Positions 3,246-43,054 of a DNA stretch of 43,499 bases are shown here, in pieces. The DNA lies in IMG/VR virus record IMGVR_UViG_3300031841_005307, positions 1 to 43,499 of that record. One strand, written 5' to 3'. The notes under the pieces were generated by a model. The model worked only from the letters and a program-made list of their open reading frames with translations. It did not search any database and was not told the origin of the DNA. A program made the position numbers and the translations under genes. The stretch's first letter is position 1, and every line of letters starts with the position of its first letter. Source of the stretch: a virus.

Positions 3246-3673
3246 GTAATCCAATAAAAGGGTTTACATGCGGTGCTTTTGACCTGCTTCACGCAGGTCA
3301 CGCACTTATGCTCAAAGAGTGTAAAGATCATTGCGATTATCTTATTGTGGGCTTACAGAGAGACCCTAGCATCGACCGAAAAGATAAAAATAAACCTGTG
3401 CAAGATTACGAAGAACGTGATATAATGGTTAAGTCGATTAGATGGATCGACGAAGTTGTTTATTATGATACCGAGGAGGACTTGTATGAGCTGCTAAAAA
3501 CTACAGATATCGACGTAAGGATTGTAGGGGCAGACTGGCAAGGAAAACCTTTTACAGGTCATGACCTCCCTATCAATGTTGTGTTTAACTCTCGTGACCA
3601 TGGGTACTCAACGTCCTCTCTTAGAGAGCGAGTATACCAGGCAGAATTGATTAAGCGACAGAAGGACCATTGA
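3242..3673 (+). CDS. Glycerol-3-phosphate cytidylyltransferase-like nucleotidyltransferase
   Basis: A 143-residue nucleotidyltransferase of the TagD/HldE-C/CTP-transferase fold. Residues 11-20 carry the signature GAFDLLHAGH (HxGH at 17-20), VGADWQGK follows at 95-102, and STSSLRERV (123-131) matches the conserved C-terminal nucleotide-binding segment. The DWQGK element is closest to glycerol-3-phosphate cytidylyltransferases, which make CDP-glycerol, but an HldE-like ADP/CDP-sugar role is possible. The start was set at the ATG whose ATGA overlaps the ClpP-like stop; a longer in-frame start 51 bases upstream would only add residues before the fold. A link with the sugar genes at the far end of the window is conceivable. 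Confidence 0.8.
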   Translation: MSNPIKGFTCGAFDLLHAGHALMLKECKDHCDYLIVGLQRDPSIDRKDKNKPVQDYEERDIMVKSIRWIDEVVYYDTEEDLYELLKTTDIDVRIVGADWQGKPFTGHDLPINVVFNSRDHGYSTSSLRERVYQAELIKRQKDH

Positions 3674-8404: not shown

Positions 8405-8439
8405 ATTACGCCTATTTAGGTTTGGAGTATTATTAGAAC

Positions 8440-10371: not shown

Positions 10372-10538
10372 TGTGTTCATTTGGAATTTCCGAATCCCTG
10401 GTTCTTGCTGGAACTTATATGATATCTTCGGGTCGAATAACCGAAGGCTGGATAATGCTAGGGATCGGAGTTTTTTCAGGATTCTTTAGATATACAACCT
10501 GGTACGGAAACACTGTTCTAGAAAAAGAAAAAGACTAA
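10371..10538 (+). CDS. Small membrane protein coupled to prkA
   Basis: A 55-residue frame beginning MCSFGISES and ending EKEKD. Its ATG shares a base with the prkA stop (TAATG), with GGAGAG nine bases upstream, so initiation looks well supported and probably coupled. Residues about 10-40 are mainly hydrophobic and Gly-rich and could form one long or two short membrane helices separated by the polar SSGRITEG turn; the C-terminus is charged. Small two-helix hairpin proteins like this can be holin- or regulator-like, but there is no evidence for either. The tight position after prkA and before the chaperonin-like gene suggests it belongs to the same unit. Confidence 0.6.
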   Translation: MCSFGISESLVLAGTYMISSGRITEGWIMLGIGVFSGFFRYTTWYGNTVLEKEKD

Positions 10539-10548
10539 AGGTTTTACC

Positions 10549-11670: not shown

Positions 11671-11715
11671 TTTTTTTTAATAGTTAATCACAGCATAAAA
11701 TCAAGGAGAAATTTT

Positions 11716-11913
11716 ATGAGTTCACAAAAAAACAAAATACTCAGATCTGTTTTTGAGACAAGAGACGTAATCGAGTCAAGCATTACTAGTGAAGTTTTTA
11801 AAGAACTTGGTACTGAGTCTCGAGAAACTGTTGAACAAGTAATGAGATCAATCAAAGGTGTTCTTTATCAACAAATGGATAGCCTGGTATCTAGAATTGA
11901 AAAAGATCTCTAG
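11716..11913 (+). CDS. Small helical protein, unknown function
   Basis: A 65-residue, charged, probably all-helical protein with heptad-like spacing through most of its length, suggesting a coiled coil or small oligomer. Not recognised. An AAGGAG ribosome-binding site precedes the ATG. The 3' end overlaps the start region chosen for the next gene by 17 bases. Confidence 0.55.
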   Translation: MSSQKNKILRSVFETRDVIESSITSEVFKELGTESRETVEQVMRSIKGVLYQQMDSLVSRIEKDL

Positions 11914-12376
11914 CACAAAAGGCATAAAACACCTAGTTCAGTGTCATTGTATTTTGCCGCAATTTAAAAATGCATCAGACCCTGTGTTTCATAGATTTGT
12001 AGTTTTTTCAATAATCGATGAAAGTGACACAGTTGTTACTAAGTACGCTACTTGCAATAACTGTGGAGCTACTCACAGGGTTTACGATGTTTGTAAGTCT
12101 GAGATTGTGACAGGAAAGGAAGACATGAGGTCAATTCTTTCGATAGAGGATTTTAAGTTTTCTCTACCTAGCTCTTTATTTGAACTTCTAGGTCAATATC
12201 AGAGAGAGCTTTGTGACTACGAATACGCGCAGTACATTATTGATAATGAAGAATGGGAGTCAACAATAGTTCTCTCAAAAGAAGAGATGGAAGAGAACAT
12301 TCAAGGTAAATCCGTACGATTTCTTGGACCGGAAAAATTTAGAGTTGAGTCATACACTCAGAAAACGAGTTTTTAA
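11897..12376 (+). CDS. Conserved zinc-ribbon-like phage protein
   Basis: A 159-residue protein with a probable zinc site: HLVQCHC near the N-terminus and CNNCGATHRVYDVC about 30 residues later. The pattern (VQCHCILPQF followed by VVFSIIDE and CNNC) is one I associate with a conserved protein of marine T4-like phages, but without a known function. The C-terminal half is acidic and helical. The start is uncertain: TTG at 11897 keeps overlap with the upstream gene short, whereas an ATG at 11858 would add 13 residues and overlap by 56 bases. Ribosome-binding evidence is weak for both. Confidence 0.6.
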   Translation: MKKISSTKGIKHLVQCHCILPQFKNASDPVFHRFVVFSIIDESDTVVTKYATCNNCGATHRVYDVCKSEIVTGKEDMRSILSIEDFKFSLPSSLFELLGQYQRELCDYEYAQYIIDNEEWESTIVLSKEEMEENIQGKSVRFLGPEKFRVESYTQKTSF

Positions 12377-12607
12377 ATGAGCAAACTTACTAAGGAAGAA
12401 ATAGAACAAAAAAGAGATGTCTTGGATAGCATCAAAGCTAGAGAGATCGTCCATGAAATTCTAAACTTCGGGGTTAACGAATTTCAAAAAAAGAAAATTA
12501 TCAAACTTTTAGCATTGGAGCTAGAAGATAGAGAAGTAATGGTGAAGATATGTGAAATCTTCTCCGAAAACGAAGAAGACACTTCAACAAACAAAATAGA
12601 AATATAG
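12377..12607 (+). CDS. Small helical acidic protein, unknown function
   Basis: A 76-residue, highly charged, helix-rich protein beginning directly after the upstream stop with no spacer, so it is likely translated by coupling. Contains KKKIIKLLALELEDREVM in the centre; no membrane segment or cysteine cluster besides one Cys. Not recognised. Confidence 0.5.
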   Translation: MSKLTKEEIEQKRDVLDSIKAREIVHEILNFGVNEFQKKKIIKLLALELEDREVMVKICEIFSENEEDTSTNKIEI

Positions 12608-12618
12608 GAGAAACTAAG

Positions 12619-12813
12619 ATGTCAGAATCGAACATACGTGAACTTTGGGCAGAAATCAAGACCCTTGTTGAGTCTCTTGACCTTGACGTAATGAAGAATG
12701 CAGGCGGAAACGCTTCGGCAGGTGTCAGAGCTAGAAGAGGACTAAGACTCCTAAAGACTAAGTCAGCAGAACTGGTTAAGACAACGATATCTGTTGAAAA
12801 AGAGAGAAAATAA
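12619..12813 (+). CDS. Hc1-like histone H1-type small protein
   Basis: A 64-residue protein in which the stretch NAGGNASAGVRARRGLRLLK (about 27-46) matches the pattern of the bacterial/chlamydial Hc1 (histone H1-like) N-terminal domain, typically an acidic helix followed by Asn-Ala-Ala-Gly-x-Arg-x-Arg-Lys. Proteins of this kind are common in marine T4-like phages and are presumed to bind DNA or nucleoid components. The long Lys/Ala-rich tail of Hc1 is absent. AGGAG precedes the start. Compaction of phage DNA or remodelling of the host nucleoid are possible roles. Confidence 0.65.
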   Translation: MSESNIRELWAEIKTLVESLDLDVMKNAGGNASAGVRARRGLRLLKTKSAELVKTTISVEKERK

Positions 12814-12840
12814 TAATCCTCTTAGAGTGTCTCAGCAAAT

Positions 12841-12867
12841 ATATTTATCTCTAGAAAGATGAGATAA
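12841..12867 (+). promoter_or_regulatory. ATATTTATC element and 7-bp dyad before the tubulin-like gene
   Basis: Directly before the start codon an ATATTTATC element (12841-12849) overlaps an inverted repeat, TTATCTC (12845-12851) and GAGATAA (12861-12867), separated by nine bases. The only possible ribosome-binding sequence (AGAAAGATGAG) lies in the loop and right arm, so folding of the RNA would affect initiation. Whether it is an operator, a translational switch or a promoter is unknown. Confidence 0.35.
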
Positions 12868-12868
12868 T

Positions 12869-14014
12869 ATGGGAAGCTCTGTTTCTAGATCACTAAAGTT
12901 TGTTGAGAAAAAAAGAAAAAATAGAAAAGAGTCTTTTGAAAAAGATTTAATTTCTTCAGAAGGAGGTAAAGAAGTGAGCGAATTTGAAGACGAATTTGAT
13001 TTCGTAGATGCATATTCAGAAGATGTAAAAGAAGACACGTCCGAACTCTTACCCGAAAACTCTGCTGAAAGTGCTATTGAGTGTGCTTTTATAGGAGTTG
13101 GGGGCGGAGGGGGAAAGCTTGCAAAAGCTTTTATAGACGTGGGTTTTAGTAGATCGTTACTAGTAAACACAACAGAAAAAGATCAGCCTGATGGTGTTGA
13201 GTCAGAAAACTTTCTTCTCATACCTGGCGCCGATGGCGTGGGCAAAGATGTAAATCTGGGCAAGAAGATACTTGGGGAAAACAGTACTCTAGTTGAGGAT
13301 GCCGTTAGAGCTAGACTCGGAGCCCCTGACTGGATTTTTGTCTTAGCTGGAGGTGGTGGTGGAACAGGAAGCGCATGTTCAGTTCTGCACGGAGGACTCG
13401 AAAGATATCTGACTTCTATCAATGCTTCCGGAAAGGTTTTTTACATTGTTTCAAAACCTAGTTCTCAAGAACTTTTAAACTCTACGATAAAGTCTAACTT
13501 TGAAGAACTATTAAAGGATGTGTCACCGTATCCTCACATAATAATAGACAACGAAAGACAGCTAACTCTTCTTAGAAACAAAGTGGGAATGTTAAATCTT
13601 CTACCTGTAGCAAACAAGAACTTCGCCAAGCTTCTTTCTCAAATCTTTAAGCTTGCTGCAACTCATTCTGATGTTCAGACATTTGACTCAAAAGATCTAG
13701 AAAAATGTCTTTCTACTCCGGGGAGGCATGTAGTAGGAAGCACGGTAATAAGAGACACTGATAGAAGAGACCTAGGCTCAGAGGTTTTAGCAGGTTGCAT
13801 AAAGTCATCACCTTGTCCTCCTCCTCCTTCTCACACTAAGACAGGATCCCTTCTATTAGTGCCTAACACTGAAATGGCTTCAGATCCTAAGATTAGCAAA
13901 AACTTAGAGGCAGCATTTTCTTATGTCGGTGGAAGAACTGACACGCTTTTCTCTGGTGTCTATATAAAGGAAAAAGTTCCAGGCCTTATTGCAATATGCA
14001 TGTTGTCAGGATGA
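12869..14014 (+). CDS. FtsZ/tubulin-family GTPase
   Basis: A 381-residue FtsZ/tubulin homologue. After a highly charged, likely disordered N-terminal extension of about 68 residues come FIGVGGGGGK (74-83, T1 loop), VNTTEKDQ (99-106), and the tubulin signature AGGGGGTGSA (160-169). NER (228-230) follows in the guanine region and the T7 loop TFDSKD keeps both acidic residues (Asp273, Asp276), equivalent to FtsZ NxDxxD, so it should form GTP-hydrolysing filaments. The C-terminus is short, without an FtsZ-type tail or a PhuZ-like acidic tail. Phage tubulins can position replicating phage nuclei or segregate DNA; which applies is unknown. It converges with, and overlaps by nine bases, a minus-strand gene. 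Confidence 0.85.
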   Translation: MGSSVSRSLKFVEKKRKNRKESFEKDLISSEGGKEVSEFEDEFDFVDAYSEDVKEDTSELLPENSAESAIECAFIGVGGGGGKLAKAFIDVGFSRSLLVNTTEKDQPDGVESENFLLIPGADGVGKDVNLGKKILGENSTLVEDAVRARLGAPDWIFVLAGGGGGTGSACSVLHGGLERYLTSINASGKVFYIVSKPSSQELLNSTIKSNFEELLKDVSPYPHIIIDNERQLTLLRNKVGMLNLLPVANKNFAKLLSQIFKLAATHSDVQTFDSKDLEKCLSTPGRHVVGSTVIRDTDRRDLGSEVLAGCIKSSPCPPPPSHTKTGSLLLVPNTEMASDPKISKNLEAAFSYVGGRTDTLFSGVYIKEKVPGLIAICMLSG

Positions 14015-14269
14015 AGGGTTGAACTCTTCGAAGAACTTAGAGTTCTTTAGCCTCTCCATAAGGGCTTTTTCAATTTGACATACTCTCATCCTAGAAATAC
14101 CGTAATAGTCTCCTATTTCTTGCAAAGTTTTAGGTCCCGCCTCAGAAGCTATTATAGAACAATTAAGATCACTCGAACAAGAAATCCAGTGCCGGCACCC
14201 CTTCTCTTCGCAAGGAGAGTTGGAATTTTTTACTTTTTTAACACAAACAAAATCTTTTAGATTACTCAT
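14006..14269 (-). CDS. Small Cys-rich sigma-70 region 4-like protein
   Basis: An 87-residue protein. Residues about 45-76 (GPKTLQEIGDYYGISRM then RVCQIEKAL) match the helix-turn-helix of sigma-70 region 4.2, where TLEEIG and RIRQIE are typical. The N-terminal half carries five cysteines (9, 20, 25, 31, 37) around CRHWISC and DLNC, likely a metal-binding knob; a sixth is in the helix. No region 2 is present, so it cannot act as a complete sigma; a -35-binding accessory or anti-sigma-like regulator is more likely. Similar small Cys/HTH proteins seem familiar from T4-like marine phages. Transcribed divergently from phoH, with GGAG before its start. Confidence 0.65.
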   Translation of the reverse strand: MSNLKDFVCVKKVKNSNSPCEEKGCRHWISCSSDLNCSIIASEAGPKTLQEIGDYYGISRMRVCQIEKALMERLKNSKFFEEFNPSS

Positions 14270-14319
14270 ATGACTCCATTACTTAAAATAACATTTAGTC
14301 CTTCTACTGGAGATTTACA

Positions 14320-15597
14320 ATGAATTTAAGAAAAACATTGATAGTAGACACCTCTGTACTACTTTACGATAAAGAATCTATTCACTCTTTTTCGGGAAAT
14401 GACGTAGTGATACCGCTTGTCGTTCTGGATGAACTTGACAGATTTAAAGAAAAACCCGGGCTTCTGGGTGAGAATGCTCGGTACGTAAATCGATTTTTAG
14501 ATTTTCTCAGAGGAATGGGAAGACTTGATCAGGGGATTATGATAGAAGAAGAAGATCAGACTGTAAGAGTTTTGATCACTTCTCCTGATGTTGCTACGGG
14601 ACTTGACGACGAAAGAGGAGACAACCAGATCATAGCCGCAGCTTTAAGCCTCAAGACGGATCAAAATGTGGTCAAGGTTATAACAAAAGACATAAATCTA
14701 AGAGTCAAGTGTGATGCCCTAGGACTCGAAGCTGAAGATTATTACAAAGATCACCTAACTGGTGAAAAAATATATGAAGAATCTAACAGATCAATAGATC
14801 TAACAGATGCTCAAATTAACGATCTATACAGAGACGGATTTATTGAAGCAGAATCAGAATTTGATGAGAATGAATTCATCGTAGCACAGGGTGCCACACA
14901 AGGAAAATCAGCTCTAGTGTTTCACAGAAAAGGAAACCTATGTTCAATACCTGATACTTCGAACGGTTCAACAGACGTTAAACCTCGCAACAAAGAACAG
15001 AAGTTTGCGTGGTTTGTTCTAAACGATGACTCAATACCTCTAGTTTCTCTTACAGGAAGGGCAGGATCAGGTAAAACTTTCTTAACGTTGATGGCAGGGC
15101 TTGACGCACTTCTTTCTGACAGATATGAAAGAATAGTTGTAACTAGAAACATAGAGCCCGTGGGTAGAGATATCGGATTTTTGCCAGGTGATGTCAAAGA
15201 AAAAATGGACCCCTGGCTCTCTCCTTTGATGGATAACTTTAGACATCACTTCAAAGATAAGACATACTTTGAGGCGATGATAGACAAAGGTCAAATAGAG
15301 ATAGCTCCTCTTTCCTTTATAAGAGGAAGAACTTTTAACAATGCTTTTATAATAGTTGATGAAGCTCAAAATGCAAGTATTCATGAACTTAAGACCATCA
15401 TAACTAGAATCGGCGAAGGATCGAAAATAGTTTTGATGGGAGATACAGATCAGATCGACACACCCTATCTAGATAAGAGGTCGAACGGTCTCTCTGTTAC
15501 GATAGACAGGTTTAGATCCAGCGAGCTTTCTGCTCAAGTCTATCTTGAAAGAGGTGAAAGATCAGCTTTGGCAACTTATGCTAGTAAGGTATTGTAA
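14320..15597 (+). CDS. phoH: PhoH-like ATPase with N-terminal PIN domain
   Basis: A 425-residue PIN-PhoH fusion (PhoH2 type). The PIN nuclease fold occupies about 1-140, with acidic residues Asp10, Glu38, Asp101 and Asp124 at the expected sites (LIVDTSVL, LDELD, GDNQIIAAA, ITKDINL). The PhoH ATPase follows with Walker A GRAGSGKT (246-253), Walker B IIVDEAQ (344-350) and MGDTDQID (373-380). PhoH2 proteins unwind and cut RNA as toxin-like enzymes; PhoH is very frequent in marine phages, often discussed with phosphate stress, though its phage role is not settled. The start follows TGGAG. It is the last gene before the structural block. Confidence 0.93.
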   Translation: MNLRKTLIVDTSVLLYDKESIHSFSGNDVVIPLVVLDELDRFKEKPGLLGENARYVNRFLDFLRGMGRLDQGIMIEEEDQTVRVLITSPDVATGLDDERGDNQIIAAALSLKTDQNVVKVITKDINLRVKCDALGLEAEDYYKDHLTGEKIYEESNRSIDLTDAQINDLYRDGFIEAESEFDENEFIVAQGATQGKSALVFHRKGNLCSIPDTSNGSTDVKPRNKEQKFAWFVLNDDSIPLVSLTGRAGSGKTFLTLMAGLDALLSDRYERIVVTRNIEPVGRDIGFLPGDVKEKMDPWLSPLMDNFRHHFKDKTYFEAMIDKGQIEIAPLSFIRGRTFNNAFIIVDEAQNASIHELKTIITRIGEGSKIVLMGDTDQIDTPYLDKRSNGLSVTIDRFRSSELSAQVYLERGERSALATYASKVL

Positions 15598-15604
15598 CAA
15601 GATG

Positions 15605-15613
15605 ATATTTATC
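15605..15613 (+). promoter_or_regulatory. ATATTTATC element before the structural block
   Basis: The nonamer ATATTTATC lies 13 bases before the GTG start of the first structural gene. The same sequence is seen before the tubulin-like and first sulfotransferase genes. Here it is so close to the ribosome-binding site (GGGAGG) that a start of transcription just downstream would leave almost no leader, so promoter status is doubtful. Confidence 0.25.
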
Positions 15614-15626
15614 TGGGAGGTGTGAA

Positions 15627-15980
15627 GTGGCAAAAATAAGATCAAAAATTATAGACAGGAATCGCTTTACCAAGAAGTATCCTCTAATAAGGGCTAAAAA
15701 AGCCAATTCTTTTATTGGTGAAACAGAAATGGAAGTAGAAGTACTTTCAGCAAAGTTTAAAAATGAGTCGACAAAGACGGTCCAGTTTGATGCTCCTTTT
15801 CCAGGAAGCATTGATCAACTTAGAATTCTTTTAAGTCCTAGAGATACAACTGATAATGATTCTGCAATGGTTACATTAGCTGTCGATACCTCAGGTACAA
15901 CAGTCAGTCAAGTAAAAATAGAAGCAAGTGCTCCCTTTACGGGCACGGTTGACATAGTGGTTCTAAGAATTGTCTCATGA
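15627..15980 (+). CDS. Probable virion structural protein (117 aa)
   Basis: A 117-residue protein starting on GTG with GGGAGG upstream. A basic N-terminus (residues 1-27) is followed by a beta-rich domain with two related segments, VQFDAPFPGSIDQLRILL and IEASAPFTGTVDIVVLRI, each ending in a strand; this internal pseudo-repeat suggests a small beta-sandwich. It is coupled by ATGA to the next gene, which also contains an EAPFPG element, so the two probably belong to one structure such as a fibre base or baseplate component. No specific family recognised. Confidence 0.6.
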   Translation: MAKIRSKIIDRNRFTKKYPLIRAKKANSFIGETEMEVEVLSAKFKNESTKTVQFDAPFPGSIDQLRILLSPRDTTDNDSAMVTLAVDTSGTTVSQVKIEASAPFTGTVDIVVLRIVS

Positions 15981-16699
15981 GATTAAGTAGCTTTACACTG
16001 ATATCCGGAAAGGTTTCAAACAAAATTGATCCTCCCGGAGTGACTTCAGCAAACCTCATCTTGCCTAGTCACGTTGATATCCCAGGAGGAGATCTTTCAG
16101 ACATAGTAGGAGCCACGATAACAATTTCAGCCGGAAGTACTTCTAGAACAATAGAATTTACGAATTCTTCTGGAGATGATTCAAAAATAAACGTTAATGA
16201 TATTTCTTCTGGAAATGACTGGCGATCTGATGTGACGGACGCAATTAACGGAACAGATGGTGGCAGCGTAAATGTTACAGCGGCTGTCGGTTTTGGAGAC
16301 ACTGTCAATCTCTCCAGAGATATAGTCGGGGAGAAAATTACAGTTTCTTTTGGAGGTACTTCAACAAGCAAGACTAATTTGGTCATTAGCGAAGTAATGT
16401 ACACTAAATCTTCTCCGAAAGAAGTATCCCTGGGTGTTGCTCAATCAACACTAACAGGCTCTTTTTCAACTCCAGGACTTAGAACCGAAGCTCCTTTTCC
16501 AGGGATTTTTACAACAAGAGTTTTTTCTGACTCAAAAAGCTGTAACTTTGTAAAATTGATTGACAAAGATGGAATAACTTTCTCCGGAGATGGTTTTCAA
16601 ATAACAGGTTCTCTTTCTGCCGAAGGGATTCACAGCCAAGTGAGCGGAACAATGGAGAAAGTCAACGGTGACTTTTTAATAGTAGCGCCAGGAAAATAG
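15977..16699 (+). CDS. Probable virion structural protein (240 aa)
   Basis: A 240-residue Ser/Thr/Gly-rich, beta-strand-rich protein without membrane segments. Near residue 172 it has TEAPFPGIFTTRVF, resembling the APFPG element of the upstream gene. The C-terminal part (about 195-240) holds GDGFQITGSLSAEG, similar in style to the SGSLYAEG segments of the following giant fibre. An ATGA overlap couples it to the previous gene. A role as an adaptor or fibre-associated protein is inferred from content and position. Confidence 0.6.
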   Translation: MRLSSFTLISGKVSNKIDPPGVTSANLILPSHVDIPGGDLSDIVGATITISAGSTSRTIEFTNSSGDDSKINVNDISSGNDWRSDVTDAINGTDGGSVNVTAAVGFGDTVNLSRDIVGEKITVSFGGTSTSKTNLVISEVMYTKSSPKEVSLGVAQSTLTGSFSTPGLRTEAPFPGIFTTRVFSDSKSCNFVKLIDKDGITFSGDGFQITGSLSAEGIHSQVSGTMEKVNGDFLIVAPGK

Positions 16700-16708
16700 G
16701 ATACTAAG

Positions 16709-19700
16709 ATGGCAAAAGATTTTAAAGCAAATCAGATAAGAACTTCAAAAATAGTAATTTCCGGTTCTGAGTCAGGAAAGCCGGCACTTTTAATATACAG
16801 TGCTTCGGACGCTACTAATTTCGCGGGCGGCTACCAGTCGGACATGCTTACTAACGTAGGTTCTGACGTTTATCTATTTGTTTCCGGAAACAATTCTTCT
16901 ATACAGGGAAACGATAGATCTAAGGTCACTCTCTTCGGCGGCGATGTCGTCGTTAGTGGTACTTTCTTTGCGGAGAAGTTCGTTGCCGAGGTTAACACTA
17001 GCGTCAATTCAGATCATTACATAAGTGGAGCCCTGTATCTTCAGGAGAAAGCCTCAGAACCTGATGTAGCTGGAAATCAAGCAGTAGTTTACGTTGCTGA
17101 TGACGGAGGGGTTTCAAAACTCTACTTTAAAAACACCGATGGAGTGACCGAAGTCGGAAGTGGAGGAGGAGGAGGATCAGGAACAGTAACCTCAGGATCT
17201 TTTAATGAGGTTGATAACTCAAACGCAGTTCCAACAACTTTTGTTACAACTTCTTCTCTTTCTCTAGCAGGAGGCTTTGGAATAAGTTACGGAGTTGAAA
17301 ACGCAGGATCTGACGTATTCTTTTTCGCTTCCGGAACAAGTAAGACAAACTATTCAGGGTTAAAAAATGATTCAGTAAGTCACCACTCGAGATCAGTTTT
17401 TGGGGGGGAGCTAGTAGTATCTAGCTCTTTATACGCTGAAGGTGCTTTGGTAGGCTACAAAAACATCATACTGAACAAATTAAATGATCAAAGTTCAGTT
17501 CTAGGTGGTATCGGTAGACTTTCTAACACAGATTCAATTTCGTTTTTTAATTCTGGAAGTGCTTCTTCAGGAGCCACAACCAAAATACAGGGATTTAGTG
17601 ATTCTGGGGGAGATACAATCTTTGACTATATCCATCTAGAAGGCGCAAGCAGAATGAACGCCAAGAGGGCTGATATTCTACCTAGAGATGGAGGTGAATC
17701 AAACTCAGAGTCAATGCGCCCAAGGATGACTTTTCTTTCTGGAGGTGCTCCTGGTTCACCTAACGAGATATCGGCAGCCGATGTTGCTGTGTTTTTCTCT
17801 GGTTCTTCTAACTCTCTGGATGAAGCAACTAGAGGCTCTACTCTCTTTGGTGGTGACGTAGCAACTAGTGGTACACTTAAGATTACAAGAAACGTTGCAC
17901 ACAACAACCAGATCGGATTGATGCTTAATCAAGGCTCGACTGATGCTGGAAATGCCGGATCAATTTCTCAAACTTTTGTTGCAGGTTTTTCAGGATACAG
18001 CACGGGAGACGGATCCGAACTATCCATTCAAAAATACGGACCGAACAATACAGCACAGATGGGAGGTCCTTTTGCTAACTTTATTAATGCTAAATCGGGA
18101 TCGCTTATTCTATCGGTAGGAGGAACTACATCTGAGTACACTGGAAATCAGGCAATAGCTCTTTCTGATAGACACCAATCAAATTTCTTAGTTGCAACAG
18201 GAAGTAAATCATCGGGAACGGGCAGAGTTCTTATTCTTTCTGGAGGTGCTGCTGGTTCTGCTGATGAGCAAACAGGCACAGATGTTAATTTCTTTGTTTC
18301 TGGTTCATCGGGATCTAAAGATTCATCAGTTAGAGGTACTTCAATATTTGGTGGCGATGTCGTAGTTAGCGGTACTTTGTACGACGGATCTGGAAATACA
18401 ATCGGAAGCGGAGGCGGCTCAATCACCGCAGCATCAGGCTCTACTTCAATCGGATCAGTTACTCAAATAGATTTCACAGAAGCTGGAATATTAAACAATA
18501 ACGGCTCCGGAGTTGCAGCCCTTACCGGAACTATAGGAAACCCTGAAGATGGGTCTTACGCTGACGGTTTGTTCACCACGTTCACACCTCAGACGACGAT
18601 TGGTGTTGCAATCGACAAGATCAATGAAGTTCTTAAGTTTCTTGCACCTTCTCCAGCTCCCGGACTAGATAATGTGGACGCTGATGGAGCTCAAGGTACA
18701 ACCGCTCTGCTTTCTTTTGGAACAGGTGTGGTTCCTTCTGGATATACCATTGTTCAGGGAAATATACCTGGAGGAAGCTCTCTTTCTGCGGTTAACATCA
18801 ACCAAAGTTACGGTGTGGTGACAGGATCTTCAGGAGACTTACGACTAGCTATCTACAATTCTTCAACTACGATAACTGGAGATCTCAACTCGGACGTTGC
18901 TGTTTCTGATTACAACTCAGGTGCGATAACAAACCACGTTGCAAAATCTTTTGGGGATGCAGATCAAGGCACACTTACTTTGGAGGTCAACGGATCAGAT
19001 ATCGTTTCTGTTGATCTTACTGATGCTGCCTCTGGAAATGGAGTTCCCGGATCTGGTACGGCAAATCACTACGGTACGTCAGTTCATTCGTCGACTGGTT
19101 TCATACAGCTTTCTCAAACAGGCAGTGCAAGAACCCAAAGCGATACTTCTTTTCCTATATTCCAGCATAGAACTGGTAAGTTTACTATACCAGAAGCTTC
19201 TCAGAGGAAGGGATATAACTACGCAAAAGTCAAGCACACAGTAGGATCTACAACAACTTCTACTAATTTTGTAGAATGGGTATACGACGAAGACGGAACT
19301 GATTCATCTAATCTTATAGGCGCTAATCAGTCAGAATTTTACGTTGATCAACTGGACGGAGGTACCAACAGGTACGATATGTCAGGTGTGAGATATGCAG
19401 TAACAGGATCAGGAGAGCACAGAGTAAGAATAGAGAATTATTACAAGCATGTCTATGCTCAAAACTCTATAACTACTTCTATTTCTAATTGCGGATCTAC
19501 TTCCCCTTCGCCTGGAACTGTTCCATCAATCAACACTGGTCTGGGTGAAGATTTTAATAAGTCTATTCATGTAACATCTTCTTTTGCAACGACGACGACA
19601 CCGATGCTTGGTGCAAGATCTACAGCGACAATATCAGTTGCTCACCCAACGAAAACCGGATTGACGAATGCAGGTTCCGTTAACTCAGGAAGATTCTTAA

Positions 19701-28830: not shown

Positions 28831-29463
28831 GTGCCTGAGTTTATTAAAAAATCTCAAAAAAATGCTAAGAAAAAATGGGTAAAAAGATTCTATTTTTGTC
28901 ACGTAGGTAGAACAGGCGGAAGATCAATAATCTGGAATTTTATCCAAGACGGCTGGGATGTTGTTCAAGATGAAAAAGAAAGACCCACCAGGGAAGAAGT
29001 TTTTCAAGGATACAAATCTAAAAGAGGGACAGATAGAATTATGCCTCAAGAATCTTTTGCAATAGTTAGACATCCAATATCTAGGATAGAATCACATGTG
29101 AGATGGGCCGTTAAAAACAAAAAACTAGACCCAAGAAAAGAATGTGTATTTGAATTCATACATAACTCTATAGAAAACATGTTCGAAGTTGAATTAGGAA
29201 GACACATAATACCAGCCTTCGAATGTGTTCTGTTTGACTCCACAGTAATTCAATATGAACTGGGTTTTAGAAACATAGCAGACTACTTGGTTCAAAACAA
29301 ATTTGTTGAAAAATGGAAAAAGAATATAAGGATAAGAGAAGACGGAAAAGTTAGATTTGACTGGTCTAAGTGTCCAGAAAAAACTAGAGACATCATATTA
29401 AAGACCTATGAACTAGACTTTGAAAACTTTGACTATGACCCTTTTGATTTTCTCAAAAAATAG
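28831..29463 (+). CDS. Sulfotransferase family protein
   Basis: A 210-residue sulfotransferase-fold protein that would use PAPS as donor. The 5'-phosphosulfate loop is HVGRTGGRSI (24-33) and the 3'-phosphate site is IVRHPISRIES (78-88). Both are in the right order and spacing for carbohydrate sulfotransferases. It starts on GTG with a strong AGGAGGT. It lies between the fibre block and another fibre protein, so a glycan or fibre substrate is plausible, but the acceptor is unknown. A tyrosyl- or protein-sulfotransferase role cannot be excluded. Confidence 0.8.
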   Translation: MPEFIKKSQKNAKKKWVKRFYFCHVGRTGGRSIIWNFIQDGWDVVQDEKERPTREEVFQGYKSKRGTDRIMPQESFAIVRHPISRIESHVRWAVKNKKLDPRKECVFEFIHNSIENMFEVELGRHIIPAFECVLFDSTVIQYELGFRNIADYLVQNKFVEKWKKNIRIREDGKVRFDWSKCPEKTRDIILKTYELDFENFDYDPFDFLKK

Positions 29464-36939: not shown

Positions 36940-37674
36940 ATGAACAGAGGAATTCTTTACATAGCATTCGGAGAATGCTTTATGAAAGAACTTAGATTTT
37001 CCGCTGAGTCTGTAAAAAAGTACAATCCTGGCTTGAGCATAACAGTTTTCACTGACAAGCCTTTTGAGTGCGAATTCGTAGACAATGTACAGCTTATGGA
37101 AGTTAGACATCTTCGACCAAAGATTGACTATATCAAGTTTACTCCTTACGAGCACACTATCTTTCTAGACACAGACACTATTATAAATCACTCTCTAGAT
37201 GATCTTTTCGGAATACTTGAGAAGTATGATCTAGCCTTGGTTCACGATCTGGCAAGAAAGAGAAAAAAGTTTCAGAATACAATTCCTGAGTACGGATCGA
37301 TACCTTATTCTTTTTCTGAGATCAACACCGGTGTAATAGCTTTTAAAATGAACGAAAGAGTCGTAAATCTATTCGACGCGTGGAGAGAAAACTTTTACAA
37401 ATATTATCAAGTAGTCCCATGGGATCAACCCTCTTTTAGAATATCTGTTTGGAACAGTGATGTTACAATGTATGTTTTGCCTCCTGAATACAACATTAGA
37501 AGTATTGCAAACAGAGAGAAACAAGACAGGTTTCATCATGAGTTCGGAGAAGAACATCTTAAAGCCAGAATCTATCACATGCATGCAGACCCCAGAATAA
37601 ATCAAGGAACTTATGAAGTTTCTTCCATGGAAGAAGCTCTAGAGTATTGCAAAAAGAACTTTATGAGGTACTAA
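36940..37674 (+). CDS. GT8-like glycosyltransferase
   Basis: A 244-residue GT-A enzyme. It opens with GILYIAFGECFMKELRFSAES, then the DxD motif in TIFLDTDTIIN (Asp77, Asp79), SEINTGVIAFKMN (about 126-138) and VPWDQPSFR (about 159-167), and ends with MHADPRI. The order and the DxD-N-x-G-V-I pattern fit GT8/nucleotide-diphospho-sugar transferases. Starts one base after the previous stop with AGAGGA upstream. The sugar specificity is unknown. Confidence 0.75.
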   Translation: MNRGILYIAFGECFMKELRFSAESVKKYNPGLSITVFTDKPFECEFVDNVQLMEVRHLRPKIDYIKFTPYEHTIFLDTDTIINHSLDDLFGILEKYDLALVHDLARKRKKFQNTIPEYGSIPYSFSEINTGVIAFKMNERVVNLFDAWRENFYKYYQVVPWDQPSFRISVWNSDVTMYVLPPEYNIRSIANREKQDRFHHEFGEEHLKARIYHMHADPRINQGTYEVSSMEEALEYCKKNFMRY

Positions 37675-37675
37675 T

Positions 37676-38443
37676 ATGAAAGTGTACAAACCCGATAAAG
37701 ATCTGGACCAGCAATTTTTCAATGAAATACACGGAAAAGATGTCGTCATAGTAGGCCCAGCTGCATATCTCGAGGGTTCTGGTTTTGGAAAGAATATAGA
37801 TTCAAAAGATGTGATTGTAAGAATTAACAGATCTTTTGAGACACCAGAAAAAATACCTGAAGATGTAGGTTCTAGAACTGATATAATATATTCGTGTCTA
37901 TTGGAGACTCATCGTAATGCCGGATTTCTAGACTTTGAAAAAATAAGAAAAGCAGGGGTTAAGATGATATGTGCTCCCGGCTTTAAAAGAGTTTACGCTT
38001 CTCACCCTCAAGGTCTTTACGGGTCTCATCCAGAAATTAAAGATTCAACCTGGAAGAAGATGCATGCCGCAAAATATAAAGCCCGAATTATTTCCGAACA
38101 ATTAGACTCTGCACTTAAGTCTGCCACTCAAACCAGGCCCAACACAGGCTTTCTAGCAATATTTGACATACTAACACACCATCCCAGAACTTTATCGATT
38201 CACGGTTTTACTTTTTATCTAGATGGATTTATCAAGGGTACAAAAGAGGGTGTTGAAAAAGAGAAAAATTGCACAGAAGAAGAATTTGCTCTCTTGGCTC
38301 TTAGATCAAAAAGACATAATCAAGAAAACATGTGGAAGTTTGCAAAAGAAAATCTTCCAAAAGCAGAAAACGTGATACTAGATGACACTATGAAAAAGAT
38401 ATTATCTCTAGAAAAATTTAGCAGGGAGGAGTTTTTAAAGTGA
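37676..38443 (+). CDS. GT29-type sialyltransferase-like protein
   Basis: A 255-residue protein with the layout of GT29 sialyltransferases. A sialylmotif-L-like segment spans 22-51: VVIVGPAAYLEGSGFGKNID followed by VIVRINR. A sialylmotif-S-like segment lies at about 154-180: RPNTGFLAIFDIL then IHGFTFY. A short HNQE (214-217) stands where motif III/VS histidine and glutamate are expected, though the spacing is not canonical. The family moves CMP-sialic acid or, in some members, CMP-KDO, to glycans. A CMP-sugar-synthetase-like gene is two genes downstream, which supports a CMP-linked donor. Overlaps the next gene by four bases. Confidence 0.75.
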   Translation: MKVYKPDKDLDQQFFNEIHGKDVVIVGPAAYLEGSGFGKNIDSKDVIVRINRSFETPEKIPEDVGSRTDIIYSCLLETHRNAGFLDFEKIRKAGVKMICAPGFKRVYASHPQGLYGSHPEIKDSTWKKMHAAKYKARIISEQLDSALKSATQTRPNTGFLAIFDILTHHPRTLSIHGFTFYLDGFIKGTKEGVEKEKNCTEEEFALLALRSKRHNQENMWKFAKENLPKAENVILDDTMKKILSLEKFSREEFLK

Positions 38444-39150
38444 GTCAATCAAAAATCTGGAAGACATATGGTTCAAAAGGAGTCTCTCTTTCTGAAGAGA
38501 CTCGAATGGAAATACAAAAAAGAATCAAAGAATCAGACAGAGTTCTGGATGTAGGTTCAGCTAAGTGCATTTTTAACAGAGCAGACTACATTTTAGATAT
38601 CTTGAGTTACGAAGATCGATCTACAAACAAGTCTTGGGGACCTGAAAGAGAATTTTTTACAAAAGAATCTTGGATACAGTCTGATATTCATGAAAAATTT
38701 CCTTTTGAAGACAAATATTTTGACTTTTCTATGTGTACTCATACCCTAGAGGACATAAAAGACCCAATATCTGTTTGTAAGGAGCTTATAAGGGTTTCTA
38801 AATCTGGATATATCGAATGCCCTTCCAGAGAGATAGAATCAGTAATGAGCCTCAAGACTCCTGGCCTGGTGGGATACGGAAACCATAGATGGTTTGTTGA
38901 TATTGAAGGAAGTGTTGTTACTTTTACTAACAAGACTCCTTATGTCTATACAGATTCTAGTTTAACCCTCGACAAGAAAGATGTTAGTACTACTTACGTA
39001 GGTCTTTTCTGGAACAATTCCTTTGATGTAAAAGAAAGAGTCTTGATAGGAACTAAAGAAACGATAGAAGATCAAAGATCATTTGTCAAAAAAATAAAGA
39101 ACAGTTCTTATAGTTTCGAGAATTGCCATTCAGGCTTTTACAAAGCGTGA
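38440..39150 (+). CDS. SAM-dependent class I methyltransferase
   Basis: A 236-residue class I methyltransferase on a GTG start that overlaps the previous stop (GTGA). Motif I is VLDVGSA (35-41); FPFEDKYFDFSMCTHTLEDI (87-106) corresponds to the strand-4 Asp and the following helix; then CKELIRVSKSGYIECPSRE. The latter half (about 150-236) has no clear domain. It may methylate a sugar or ulosonate. The adjoining CMP-sugar-type gene begins inside its stop codon. Confidence 0.75.
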   Translation: MSQSKIWKTYGSKGVSLSEETRMEIQKRIKESDRVLDVGSAKCIFNRADYILDILSYEDRSTNKSWGPEREFFTKESWIQSDIHEKFPFEDKYFDFSMCTHTLEDIKDPISVCKELIRVSKSGYIECPSREIESVMSLKTPGLVGYGNHRWFVDIEGSVVTFTNKTPYVYTDSSLTLDKKDVSTTYVGLFWNNSFDVKERVLIGTKETIEDQRSFVKKIKNSSYSFENCHSGFYKA

Positions 39151-39794
39151 AAATATTCGTTCCCATAAAGGAAAACTCACAAAGAGTACCCAGAAAAAAC
39201 TTTCGAAAAGTACAGGGCACGCCTCTGTACTTAAGACTTTTTGAAAAGCTAAAAGAGTTTGAAGTTTATGTCGACACAGACAGTGATGAAATTATCGATG
39301 ATCTATCTAAAAGATACGAAAATGTAATAGCTTACAGAAGAGAAGAAAGTCTTGAAGGAGACAAAGTCTCAGTTTGTGATTTGATCCATAGTTTCATATC
39401 AAGATTTAAAATAGAAAAAGAGTGGATATGCCAGATTCACGTGACCAGTCCCTTTCTAGAGAAAGAAACTTTAGAAAAAGTTCAATCTTTTACTGGGCTA
39501 GAATATGACTCTATAGTATCTTGCAATCCGATTCAGACAAGATTGTGGAGAAAAGAAAAATACGGTATGTGTCCAATTAACCACAACCCGGTTAAGCTGG
39601 AACAGACACAAGATCTTCCTGTTTATTACGAAGAAAATTCTCTTTTCTATGCTTTTAAGTCTGACATGTTTCTTGATACTGGAATGAGAATTGGTAGAAA
39701 TCCTTTTTTTTATGAGTCTAGTTTTCCGGAAAATCTGGATATAGACACAGAAGATGATTGGAAATTGGTGAAAAAAATTGCAGAATCAAATTAA
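39147..39794 (+). CDS. CMP-ulosonate (NeuA/KdsB-type) cytidylyltransferase
   Basis: A 215-residue member of the CMP-NeuAc/CMP-KDO synthetase family. It shows the activating loop KENSQRVPRKNFRKV (8-22, like the family's R-x-x-S-x-R-x-P-x-KN), QIHVTSPFLEKE (96-107), NSLFYAF (164-170) and the terminal metal site DIDTEDDW (198-205). The enzyme would turn CTP and a 3-deoxy-2-ulosonic acid into a CMP-sugar. I chose the GTG (GTGA overlap); an ATG 24 bases upstream is an alternative. The GT29-type transferase is two genes upstream; the ulosonic acid made is unknown. Confidence 0.8.
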   Translation: MKIFVPIKENSQRVPRKNFRKVQGTPLYLRLFEKLKEFEVYVDTDSDEIIDDLSKRYENVIAYRREESLEGDKVSVCDLIHSFISRFKIEKEWICQIHVTSPFLEKETLEKVQSFTGLEYDSIVSCNPIQTRLWRKEKYGMCPINHNPVKLEQTQDLPVYYEENSLFYAFKSDMFLDTGMRIGRNPFFYESSFPENLDIDTEDDWKLVKKIAESN

Positions 39795-40482
39795 ACTTAG
39801 ATGGCAACAAATACCCTCTCCACTAGTTTCTGAGATAATGAGTCAGGGAAACCATGACGGAGTCGTCTTAGACATGGAGCATGGATTTCCAAACCCAGAG
39901 ACTCTTGTTTCTTGCATACAGGTAATAAGTCTTTCCGGCAAGCGTTGCTTTGTTAGATTATCAACTGCTACTGTTGAGAAAATAAGACTTTGTCTAGACA
40001 GTGGTGCTGAAGGGATAATTTTTTCCACTGTAGAGTCGGTACACAGAGCAGAAAAGATAATCAATCGGTGCAACTATCCTTCTATGGGAGGTAACAGAGG
40101 TTTAGGGTTGGTTAGACAGAATATGTGGGGTCTAAAAGATCTAATTCAAAAACCTCCAATACTAATAGCTCAGATAGAAACGAAAGCCGGAATAGACAGG
40201 ATTGAAGAACTTTCAAAATGTTGCTTCGATTACTTTCTAATAGGACCTTACGATCTTTCTGCTAGTCTAGGAAGACCTGGTGAATTTGATACAAGTGAAT
40301 TTAAGTCTTGTCTAGATAAGTTTGCAAAATTTGTTCCGGAAAATAGAAGAGCGGTTCACATACCCAAAGATGTACAAGAACAAATAAAGAAATACAATTC
40401 TTACGGAATGATAGCAATGGGAATGGATACTGTTTCTCTCATAGAAAAGAACGCTGAATATGATAATAAGCCTGGATTATAA
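39778..40482 (+). CDS. HpcH/HpaI-family class II pyruvate aldolase
   Basis: A 234-residue TIM-barrel aldolase. The class's sites are present: VLDMEHG (30-36, with Asp32, Glu34 and His35), FVRLS (58-62, the Arg), IAQIETKAGI (130-139, metal ligand Glu134), and IGPYDLSASLG (155-165, metal ligand Asp159). These enzymes split or build 2-keto-3-deoxy acids from pyruvate and an aldehyde. Start is a TTG overlapping the previous gene by 17 bases with GGTG upstream. Next to a CMP-ulosonate synthetase, it could make the ulosonic acid by a different route than PEP-dependent NeuB or KdsA; that is inference. Confidence 0.85.
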   Translation: MQNQIKLRWQQIPSPLVSEIMSQGNHDGVVLDMEHGFPNPETLVSCIQVISLSGKRCFVRLSTATVEKIRLCLDSGAEGIIFSTVESVHRAEKIINRCNYPSMGGNRGLGLVRQNMWGLKDLIQKPPILIAQIETKAGIDRIEELSKCCFDYFLIGPYDLSASLGRPGEFDTSEFKSCLDKFAKFVPENRRAVHIPKDVQEQIKKYNSYGMIAMGMDTVSLIEKNAEYDNKPGL

Positions 40483-41170
40483 TTTTATCTTTATGAAGGT
40501 CAATAAGACTGCAAGTTCATCGATTGAACTTTTTTTATCTGAAAAAATAGAAAAAGAAGCTATTGTAACTCCTATCAACCCGGGAGGAAAAATGCTTTAC
40601 GAAGGAAGAAACGTTCCCACCATCAGAGGAAACCCAGTGTTTCAGAATCATGAAAGCCTAGCTGAGATAAGGGACTCTCTAGGCATTCCGAACTATGATT
40701 TTTTTAAAAATTCAAAAAAAGTCTCGTGTGTAAGAAATCCATGGTCACTGATGGCAACGACTTACGAGTGGAGAAAAAAAAAGAAAGATTCGAGGGCTCT
40801 AAACAACGATTTCAAAACTTGGCTGTTTGGTAATTTTGATCTTTCTATGTACAAAGTGCCGCATGTCATGACCTCTATTTTTAATAGTGACGGGAAGTCT
40901 AGATATCATGAAAAAAATGAAAGTTTTAATACAAAAGACCCCATAGTAGATAAGATTATAAGGTTTGAAAAACTAGAAGAAGATTTTAAAGAAGTTTGTA
41001 AATTTTTAGGCATAGAAAATAAGAACGAAACTATCAGAAAAACTGCCTCATCTGGTCGAGAGAAAAAATATCACGAGTACTACGATGATGAGTCAGCAGA
41101 GCTGGTTTATAAAAACTTCGAACCGTTAATAAAATACTTTAAATACCGATTCGGCGAAAAGGAGATTTAA
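40460..41170 (+). CDS. Sulfotransferase family protein (second copy)
   Basis: A 236-residue sulfotransferase. It starts MIISLDYNFIFMKVNKTASSS, the typical start of the family with the PAPS 5'-phosphosulfate loop at KVNKTASSS (13-21), then SCVRNPWSLMATTY (89-102) as the 3'-phosphate site, and ends with YYDDESAELVYKNF, common to carbohydrate 2-O-type sulfotransferases. The start overlaps the aldolase by 23 bases; an ATG 33 bases later would remove the first strand, so the longer form is chosen. It is not closely similar to the earlier sulfotransferase in this window. Confidence 0.8.
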   Translation: MIISLDYNFIFMKVNKTASSSIELFLSEKIEKEAIVTPINPGGKMLYEGRNVPTIRGNPVFQNHESLAEIRDSLGIPNYDFFKNSKKVSCVRNPWSLMATTYEWRKKKKDSRALNNDFKTWLFGNFDLSMYKVPHVMTSIFNSDGKSRYHEKNESFNTKDPIVDKIIRFEKLEEDFKEVCKFLGIENKNETIRKTASSGREKKYHEYYDDESAELVYKNFEPLIKYFKYRFGEKEI

Positions 41171-42148
41171 TTGCTTAATTTTGAAAACTTAGATGAAAAG
41201 TTTGTAAACATTGTAAACGGAAAAGAGTGGACAGACCTTCAAAGCAAGTTCAATAAATCAAACGAAATATTTGTTCTAGGCCACGGTGGAAACCTTGCAG
41301 TAGCTGACCATGCAGCGGTTGATATAACTAGACTTTCAAACGGAACTAAGAATGCAATGTGCCCAGGCTCTGGGGTTGTGGCAACTTCTTTGATAAACGA
41401 CGTGGGATTTGACCAGTGGATGGTAACATGGCTAAACCAAAGAACATGCACTCGAACAAAATCACAACTTCAGGATACTCTGGTTCTTGGCGTATCATCC
41501 TCCGGAACTTCAACTGATGTTATTAAGGCGCTTCAATGGGCAAACGACCAAGGGATGAACATCGCGATGATAACGAGTCGTCCCTTAAGCGTCAAAATTC
41601 CTAATCTAACAGTTGTTGAGCTCGGTGCTGAGTATTATCATACTGCAGAGGTACTAACACTTCTACTCACGTATGAACTAACTCATGGGTCAGGAAAAGA
41701 ATGCCCTCCAATCGGAAAGAATACACCCAAGGATTTAGAGAAGCTAAACTGGAAGGGTGGAAATGTTAGAGAGCACAGTTACCCTGATGAGCAGATCAAC
41801 ATAGGTGTAGATTTTGACAAGGTAATTCACAAGTGCACAAAGGGCTACTTTGACGGAACTATCTATGATGAACCCGTTGAAGGTGCTTTTGAAGCACTCC
41901 AGAAGCTTTCAGAGAAATACACAGTTATTGTCTACACATGTAAGGCAAAAGCCGATAGAGGTTTAGTGAACGGAAAGACCGGAACAGAATTGGTTTGGGA
42001 CTGGCTTGAAAAGCACGACATGTCAAAGTTTGTTTCTAAAGTCACCGCCGAAAAGCCAAGGGCAGTAGCCTATATTGACGATAAGGCGATACAGTTTAAT
42101 GACTGGGATTCAACTCTAAAAACTCTAGAAGTACGGAAAATACTGTAG
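41171..42148 (+). CDS. SIS isomerase-HAD phosphatase fusion
   Basis: A 325-residue, two-domain protein. Residues about 30-170 are a SIS sugar-isomerase domain with HGGNLAVADHAAVDITRL (38-55, GmhA-like) and LGVSSSGTSTDVIKAL (106-121). Residues about 208-325 are a HAD phosphatase with VDFDKVIH (213-220, Asp214/Asp216), YTCKAK (255-260), Lys295 and IDDKAIQF (302-309). SIS plus HAD corresponds to consecutive steps in sugar-phosphate pathways, such as GmhA-GmhB (heptose) or KdsD-KdsC (KDO). TTG start with AAGGAG upstream. It is the last biosynthetic enzyme of the operon. Substrate not known. Confidence 0.8.
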   Translation: MLNFENLDEKFVNIVNGKEWTDLQSKFNKSNEIFVLGHGGNLAVADHAAVDITRLSNGTKNAMCPGSGVVATSLINDVGFDQWMVTWLNQRTCTRTKSQLQDTLVLGVSSSGTSTDVIKALQWANDQGMNIAMITSRPLSVKIPNLTVVELGAEYYHTAEVLTLLLTYELTHGSGKECPPIGKNTPKDLEKLNWKGGNVREHSYPDEQINIGVDFDKVIHKCTKGYFDGTIYDEPVEGAFEALQKLSEKYTVIVYTCKAKADRGLVNGKTGTELVWDWLEKHDMSKFVSKVTAEKPRAVAYIDDKAIQFNDWDSTLKTLEVRKIL

Positions 42149-42157
42149 TTTATTTTT

Positions 42158-43054
42158 ATGAAACACTTAAAGATATACATCGTAACTTACAAGAGATCTG
42201 ATGTTTTAAACGATACTCTAGACAAGCTATATAAGTCAGACTTTGTAAATGTCAAAAACACTGAAGTCAACATTATTAACAATCATTCTGAGTTTTTTCT
42301 AGAGGAAAGATTTAAAGACAAGGTAAATGTTCTTCATAATACTCTTCGTCCTGACTGGTCAAACGGAAACTTGGCTGAGAACTGGAATCAAGCTCTTTTA
42401 GACGGATTTAGAGATTTGGACAATCCTGATTCTGAGTATGTTGTAACTTTTCAAAACGATACCGCTGTTGATAGAAACTGGTACAAGAATCTCATGAAAC
42501 TTCATGAAAGATTTAACTTCGTTGTGGGAAGATACGGAGATAATTTTGTATCTTATACTCCTGAAGCAGTCAAAAATATTGGAATCTGGGATGAAAATTT
42601 CTTTGGTGTCCAGTTTAAGGAAGCTGACTATTGGCTTAGAGCAGTTGCTTTTAACAGGGAGGGTTCTTTTATAAATGACACCCTTCATGGCCTAGAGCTT
42701 AATAATGAAAATCCTTTAGAGCTAGATACCACAGAAGATCGAAACTTTATCGAAGAGTCAGGCTTCGCCGGAGAAAACACTTTAAAAAGACGTGCAGATA
42801 ATCTCGAGCATCAAGAAATATGGAAGACAAGAGGTGGTTTCTACAAAGAATATGCATGGAGATATTTCTGTGAAAAATGGTCAGGAACTTGGGATCACGG
42901 AGAACCCGTAAGATCTCAGTGGGTCAAAAACTGGCCAAAAGAAATGACTACAAACCCGCCTGATCTTAGAAAATCTAAAATAAAGATCGTAATGAAGTAT
43001 CCCTACTTCGAGTGCTCAATAAGAAATCTTAAAGATAAAAACTATATGATCTAG
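42158..43054 (+). CDS. Family 2-like glycosyltransferase
   Basis: A 298-residue GT-A protein. It opens with LKIYIVTYKRSDVLNDTL, followed by VNIINNHS, GNLAENWNQALLDG and a TFQNDTAVDRNWY segment (97-109) in place of the usual DxD. The pattern fits GT2 glycosyltransferases with an N-D metal site. The later half is acidic and aromatic-rich. There is no clear ribosome-binding site. No membrane segment. It closes the main operon. Confidence 0.75.
   Translation: MKHLKIYIVTYKRSDVLNDTLDKLYKSDFVNVKNTEVNIINNHSEFFLEERFKDKVNVLHNTLRPDWSNGNLAENWNQALLDGFRDLDNPDSEYVVTFQNDTAVDRNWYKNLMKLHERFNFVVGRYGDNFVSYTPEAVKNIGIWDENFFGVQFKEADYWLRAVAFNREGSFINDTLHGLELNNENPLELDTTEDRNFIEESGFAGENTLKRRADNLEHQEIWKTRGGFYKEYAWRYFCEKWSGTWDHGEPVRSQWVKNWPKEMTTNPPDLRKSKIKIVMKYPYFECSIRNLKDKNYMI

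Follow-up and report, generated by a model that had tools for sequence, protein, structure and literature searches.

The gene set and its enzymes

A compact set of six genes encoding carbohydrate-active enzymes was analysed in the IMG/VR virus record IMGVR_UViG_3300031841_005307, the 43,499 bases of which are referred to here as the window. The genes lie on one strand between positions 37676 and 42148, overlap or nearly touch one another, and combine a pyruvate aldolase with a cytidine monophosphate (CMP)-transferase, a combination that recurs in dozens of uncultured viruses and, judging from sequence, probably represents a hitherto undescribed means of building a sugar coat. In the textbook route, CMP-ulosonates, such as those of 3-deoxy-D-manno-octulosonic acid (KDO) and the sialic acids, are made with phosphoenolpyruvate (PEP)-dependent synthases. 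A sequence-only reading of the window had named an SIS-HAD fusion, an aldolase, a cytidylyltransferase and a GT29 enzyme within these six genes, and all of them were found, in the following order:

37676..38443, + strand: GT29-type (sialyltransferase-family) glycosyltransferase, PF00777
38440..39150, + strand: S-adenosylmethionine-dependent methyltransferase, accessory, PF08241 (32.9 bits)
39147..39794, + strand: CMP-sugar (ulosonate) synthetase of the NeuA/PseF branch (the CMP-transferase), PF02348
39778..40482, + strand: HpcH/HpaI-type class II pyruvate aldolase of a virus-dominated clade, PF03328, HpaI fold
40460..41170, + strand: sulfotransferase-like protein, accessory, phrog_3347 and PF03567
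41171..42148, + strand: fusion of an SIS domain (GmhA-like sugar-phosphate isomerase fold) with a HAD-type phosphatase (SIS-HAD)

The aldolase scored 50.9 bits against PF03328 (Pfam cut-off 25), with a profile nearest to HpaI and YfaU, and its structural model matched the TIM-barrel structures of HpaI/HpcH in a Foldseek search (E about 1e-13 to 1e-15). Seven residues (D32, E34, H35, R60, D74, E134 and D159) are invariant in all 56 non-redundant sequences; E134 and D159 correspond to the metal ligands E149 and D175 of HpaI, and R60, H35, D32 and D74 correspond to its R70, H45, D42 and D84. The gene product is, by these sequence characters, an HpcH/HpaI class II pyruvate aldolase, for which aldol activity is predicted. 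The Foldseek matches included the related aldolase SwHKA, in which hydroxypyruvate is bound in the solved structure. Close relatives of the aldolase are absent from GenBank phages, where the only hit was a 27% match in two Staphylococcus phage records that is probably unrelated or host DNA.

The CMP-transferase scored 61.5 bits against PF02348 (Pfam cut-off 22.6). Its best NCBIfam model was PseF, at 72.8 bits against a cut-off of 205.7, and it is therefore not an orthologue by the PseF model; KdsB models matched at E values of 2e-5 or weaker, far under their cut-offs, and CMP-sialate synthetases were the sole matches in a profile search of the PDB. Residues R21, K25, N26, Q104, D206 and D208, which form the site for cytidine triphosphate (CTP) and metal, are invariant in the non-redundant sequences. 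By these comparisons the enzyme belongs to the NeuA/PseF branch and not to KdsB; this placement leans toward nonulosonates, although the product may be of C8, C9 or another chain length. A GTG codon at 39147, which forms a GTGA overlap with the preceding stop codon, was favoured over position 39123 and is probably the true start. No match for the CMP-transferase was found among GenBank phages.

The GT29 protein scored 39.7 bits against PF00777 (Pfam cut-off 23), is conserved among viral relatives, and matches sialyl motif L of the mammalian sialyltransferases in a PDB profile search; the pentatricopeptide-repeat matches that scored best in that search had no passing stretch and were set aside as repeat artefacts. 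In one related locus (L131, 7507-9105), a D-2-hydroxyacid dehydrogenase-like domain is fused to GT29. The sulfotransferase-like protein matched phrog_3347, galactose-3-O-sulfotransferase, at 41 bits and PF03567 at 21.1 bits, slightly under the cut-off of 22. In L002, the closest relative of the window, the genes for GT29, CMP-transferase, aldolase and SIS-HAD are consecutive, and the methyltransferase and sulfotransferase are missing; these last two genes are accessory and come and go between loci.

The fusion protein comprises an SIS half (about residues 1-195) and a HAD half (about residues 205-325). The SIS half remained under the Pfam cut-off (22.7 versus 25 bits), and its structural model placed the phosphoheptose isomerase GmhA at the top of the Foldseek list (E 3.5e-8, probability 1.00), with KdsD structures ranking lower. 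Against the curated gmhA equivalog model the fusion scored 31.9 bits and did not reach the cut-off of 209.45, and the likeness to GmhA is one of fold only; as modelled, the SIS domain appears GmhA-like rather than KdsD-like. The HAD half matched phrog_1238 at 65 bits, and its motifs (D214-x-D216, T/S256, K295 and D303-D304) are kept throughout the relatives.

These results bear out the sequence-only reading for the GT29-type transferase, by Pfam score and motif L, and for an aldolase with all of its metal residues, by alignment to the HpaI active site and by fold. They narrow it for the cytidylyltransferase, which it had called NeuA/KdsB-type and for which only the NeuA side holds, and for the fusion, which is real but has GmhA rather than KdsD as its nearest neighbour by fold. 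The parallel that it drew with KdsD, KdsA, KdsC and KdsB survives as an order of functions and fails as kinship to KdsB and probably to KdsD.

Recurrence in viruses

Viral contigs were scanned with an alignment of the aldolase, and near-copies were removed to obtain a non-redundant set, which yielded 69 viral loci of the aldolase clade, 50 of them non-redundant (loci are designated throughout by L numbers). A CMP-transferase lies near the aldolase in 40 of the 44 non-redundant loci that have 5 kb or more of flanking sequence at both ends; 38 of these were recognized by the CMP-transferase profile, and the other two, L077 and L093, have a KdsB-like gene with a low profile score. The two genes are often 2-5 kb apart (median gap 2231 bp). 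At least one PF02348 CMP-transferase gene is present in 46 of the 50 aldolase records and, conversely, the aldolase is present in 49 of the 52 loci of the CMP-transferase subfamily found in the window, all except L150-L152. In 28 of 49 non-redundant viral loci the gene immediately after the aldolase encodes SIS-HAD, and a D-2-hydroxyacid/phosphoglycerate dehydrogenase (PGDH) gene follows the aldolase in L033, L032, L077, L087 and L093. The catalytic residues of the aldolase, SIS-HAD and CMP-transferase are invariant or nearly so across the non-redundant viral sequences.

A separate arrangement was observed in L080, L082, L092 and L095, where no CMP-transferase is present and where, around positions 8200-13000, genes for a thiamine pyrophosphate-dependent enzyme of ~596 aa, the aldolase, a second HpcH/HpaI-like protein, a 4Fe-4S protein and a HAD protein (names assigned by eye) are found.

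SIS-HAD itself has more than 500 relatives in viruses. It adjoins the aldolase in 17 of the 18 non-redundant SIS-HAD loci that hold one, and in 17 of the 35 that lack the aldolase it is in contact with a PF02348-type CMP-transferase gene. Being far more widespread than the aldolase, it was rejected as a specific marker of an aldolase pathway. Among about 47 aldolase-free SIS-HAD records, NeuB is present in 5, a fumarylacetoacetate (FAA)-hydrolase in 7 and a KdsA-type gene in 2. In L188 (11586-12236), the FAA-hydrolase gene is next to SIS-HAD and a CMP-transferase, in the slot of the aldolase; the occurrence of this family in 7 of 48 aldolase-free records is suggestive of another pyruvate-handling enzyme in that slot.

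Cellular relatives and an active-site signature

A scan of 84,980 species genomes, performed with narrow peptide patterns that miss divergent cellular relatives, identified the aldolase in two archaeal metagenome-assembled genomes (MAGs) only. In L032, the aldolase gene is followed by a D-2-hydroxyacid dehydrogenase gene within a glycan island, and the very large surface-protein-like gene alongside suggests that this locus comes from a cell and not from a virus. When 371 genomes of the phylum of the archaeal MAGs were searched with greater sensitivity, L234 was added, in which a distant aldolase gene overlaps a KdsB-like gene (assigned by eye) by 4 bases. On plasmid NZ_CP094833 of the seawater bacterium Acuticoccus, genes for an aldolase/citrate lyase family protein, an acylneuraminate cytidylyltransferase, a PGDH and a HAD protein are found in succession, the first three overlapping by 1 base each. 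A strictly virus-exclusive aldolase was rejected given L032, L033, L234 and Acuticoccus.

To characterize the clade, 26 viral and cellular glycan-linked aldolases were aligned with 12 comparison enzymes, which are catabolic or otherwise CMP-unlinked HpaI relatives from plasmids that have no adjacent CMP-transferase gene and several of which lie within hpa operons. Tyr158 is present in all 26 glycan-linked aldolases and His194 in 24 of them, the two with Phe194 (L080 and L082) both belonging to the subgroup without a CMP-transferase; the comparison enzymes have Ala, Ser or Gly at position 158 and Gly or Pro at position 194. Tyr158 and His194 occur together in the CMP-linked aldolases, whether from viruses, archaea or Acuticoccus. 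In a phylogenetic tree, the viral and archaeal-MAG aldolases form one group (support 100/100), and those of L234 and Acuticoccus, which nevertheless carry the signature, fall on the opposite side; the signature may therefore be either ancestral or convergent.

PEP-dependent synthases in the same records

Neither NeuB/PseI (PF03102) nor a KdsA/DAHP-type synthase (PF00793) was found in the window, which is itself a fragment. Among the 50 aldolase records, likewise fragments, NeuB is present in 5 and KdsA in 2, the latter not being found in the remaining 48; 45 records contain neither, and the aldolase is thus the only recognized carbon-carbon-forming synthase in them. In two records, L037 and L038, all three synthases (the aldolase, KdsA and NeuB) co-occur with three PF02348 genes; in L037 the whole set is located within about 10 kb (6304-16883). 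There, the starts of two PF02348 genes (8582 and 15268) are overlapped by the KdsA and NeuB genes, one by each; the third, at 7104-7763, immediately precedes KdsA and belongs to the aldolase-linked subfamily. KdsA sits between two PF02348 genes, so overlaps and subfamily membership, and not position alone, are the basis for pairing synthases with CMP-transferases in this record.

A proposed pathway and its alternatives

From the gene identities, catalytic residues, aldolase and SIS folds and conserved linkage described above, we infer a scheme with its step order, direction, substrates, product and destination (host surface or virion). On balance, the sequence evidence favours the view that the viral genes constitute a pathway to a CMP-ulosonate (an activated 2-keto-3-deoxy sugar acid) used in a surface glycan, with pyruvate, an aldose (phosphate) and CTP as starting materials. 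A host ketose phosphate would be converted to an aldose phosphate by the GmhA-like SIS domain. HpaI enzymes add a metal-bound pyruvate enolate to an aldehyde to give a 4-hydroxy-2-keto acid, which is an ulosonate when the aldehyde is an aldose, and the viral aldolase would join the two in this way at the aldehyde carbon to form an ulosonate (phosphate). Removal of the phosphate, before or after the aldol step, would fall to the HAD half of the fusion, and the NeuA-like enzyme would activate the acid with CTP. The aldol equilibrium usually lies on the cleavage side; CTP activation and pyrophosphate release would pull it forward. GT29 would then transfer the sugar, which the methyltransferase and sulfotransferase may decorate. 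Candidate conversions are, for example, arabinose-5-phosphate to KDO, mannose-6-phosphate to KDN, or that of a heptose phosphate.

A broader proposal, on which we consider the sequence evidence evenly poised, is that a dedicated biosynthetic clade of HpaI-type aldolases bearing Tyr158/His194, comprising a large group from uncultured viruses and rare archaeal and bacterial cousins, is a third route to ulosonates besides KdsA and NeuB, some viruses holding all three. No description of an aldolase-based CMP-ulosonate pathway was found in the open PubMed Central literature, subscription papers being outside the search. The earlier suggestion of a pyruvate aldolase replacing the PEP-dependent synthase is strengthened by the recurrent neighbourhoods, the absence of NeuB and KdsA, the three-synthase viruses and the signature, and overall it is partly supported. 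Its further suggestion of a new phage-encoded pathway holds for the viral linkage of aldolase and CMP-transferase and does not extend to phages only, given the archaeal and Acuticoccus operons.

Several points weigh against the proposed pathway. The main weakness of SIS-HAD as the acceptor-making enzyme is its occurrence without the aldolase: in most of the aldolase-free records, no HpcH/HpaI, NeuB, KdsA or FAA-hydrolase gene was detected, and there either the host provides the acid, a different synthase acts or SIS-HAD works on another sugar. Four aldolase records have no CMP-transferase, and some aldolase loci have a D-2-hydroxyacid dehydrogenase in place of SIS-HAD, which the scheme leaves unexplained. 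The HpaI-family aldolases whose activity has been characterized to date are catabolic and operate in the cleavage direction. Finally, the window being a fragment, a PEP synthase could lie beyond its end, and the earlier description of the route as self-contained is provisional.

Some of these points would be accommodated if the island held two independent modules, one (CMP-transferase and GT29) drawing on KDO or sialic acid made by the host, the other (aldolase and SIS-HAD) performing other sugar chemistry. SIS-HAD does pair with other CMP-transferases in many aldolase-free viruses, the four records without a CMP-transferase fit, and glycan islands shuffle genes, in keeping with the kilobase distances between aldolase and CMP-transferase. 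We nevertheless judge this arrangement unlikely, although it survives best among the alternatives: the near-constant presence of the aldolase with the window-type CMP-transferase subfamily (49/52), the direct joining of the two genes in the archaeal and Acuticoccus operons, the tracking of CMP linkage by Tyr158/His194 and the separate CMP-transferase for each synthase in viruses that also hold KdsA and NeuB all argue against it.

A pathway resembling that for nucleoside diphosphate-heptose, in which the GmhA-like SIS and a GmhB-like HAD produce an aldose, heptose or other, for activation to a nucleotide sugar by the PF02348 protein, with the aldolase as a side enzyme, would suit both the nearness of SIS to GmhA and the contacts of SIS-HAD with PF02348-type genes in 17 of 35 aldolase-free loci. 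It appears improbable, however, since no sugar kinase was recognized in the region of the window examined, the only solved structures matched by the PF02348 protein are CMP-sialate synthetases, GT29 enzymes use CMP-sugars, and the fixed presence of the aldolase would be unexplained. More doubtful still is hydroxypyruvate as the donor instead of pyruvate, which would give an ulosonic acid retaining its 3-hydroxyl; the dehydrogenase genes after the aldolase in the five loci named above and after the CMP-transferase in Acuticoccus, the L131 fusion of GT29 with a dehydrogenase-like domain and the ligand of SwHKA speak for it, but the listed open reading frames of the window and its nearest relative include no such dehydrogenase and most of the aldolase clade has SIS-HAD instead. 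That the aldolase cleaves a host sugar acid, thereby altering the host surface or supplying pyruvate, is hardly credible: known family members do cleave, but this one has glycosyltransferases and an activating CMP-transferase as its neighbours and, in contrast to the catabolic HpaI loci examined, no linked transporters or catabolic genes.

Surroundings of the gene set

The six genes belong to a glycan island that occupies the right part of the window from about 31.8 kb onward, and the final open reading frame is truncated by the end of the sequence at 43497, indicating that the record is a fragment. The genes on either side belong to the same cluster and recur in related loci, the first of them upstream of GT29:

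36940..37674, + strand: nucleotide-diphospho-sugar transferase, PF03407 (31.3 bits)
42158..43054, + strand: GT2-type glycosyltransferase, PF00535 (20.7 bits, slightly under the cut-off)

The left part of the window encodes ClpP, a DEAD-type helicase, a DUF444-SpoVR-PrkA trio, a tubulin/FtsZ-like protein and PhoH. A CTP_transf_like nucleotidyltransferase gene (3191-3673; PF01467, 62 bits) overlaps the end of the ClpP gene, and the DUF444 (YeaH), SpoVR (YcgB) and PrkA (YeaG) genes are consecutive (5928-10371), here in a virus; PrkA is also found, at about 30% identity, in phages of Thermus and in uncultured phages of very large size. The tubulin/FtsZ-like GTPase (12869-14014) has a GGGGGTGS motif and a PF00091 score of 21 bits, below the cut-off, and gave zero matches among 50,697 GenBank phage records. 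Long repetitive fibre-like proteins are encoded in the middle of the window, and amid their genes lies one for a protein that by eye resembles sulfotransferases (28831-29463).

Comparison with known systems

If the proposed pathway is correct, ulosonates would be made by an aldolase, with CMP activation as the driving force, as an alternative to the PEP-dependent synthases. Aldolases of viral, archaeal and bacterial glycan clusters that otherwise carry a catabolic annotation would gain a function, the Tyr158/His194 signature offering a simple means to re-annotate them. Viruses would then carry near-complete acidic-sugar pathways, probably reshaping host or virion surfaces.

The PF03328 aldolases HpaI/HpcH, GarL and YfaU share the fold, metal ligands and catalytic residues of the viral aldolase, which differs in its low identity to catabolic relatives (~23-28%), its Tyr158/His194 pair and its glycan-cluster context without catabolic partners. 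GmhA shares with the SIS half the SIS fold, a GG motif and phosphate-binding serines, whereas the window protein has a fused HAD domain; Asp51 occupies the position of the catalytic Glu65 of Escherichia coli GmhA, and no counterpart of its His180 was found. The Acuticoccus operon likewise couples an aldolase bearing the signature directly to a CMP-transferase, with a HAD gene nearby, but it has PGDH instead of SIS and its aldolase is 34% identical to that of the window. The nonulosonate systems NeuB-NeuA, PseI-PseF and LegI-LegF share the CMP-transferase branch, GT29 being the sialyltransferase family, and the window has the aldolase in place of their NeuB/PseI synthase. The KDO pathway (KdsD-KdsA-KdsC-KdsB) follows the same logic of isomerase, carbon-carbon synthase, HAD phosphatase, CMP-transferase and glycosyltransferase; in the viral set, a pyruvate aldolase stands in for the PEP-dependent KdsA, the SIS domain is GmhA-like, the CMP-transferase is of the NeuA/PseF branch, and the isomerase and phosphatase are fused in a single protein.

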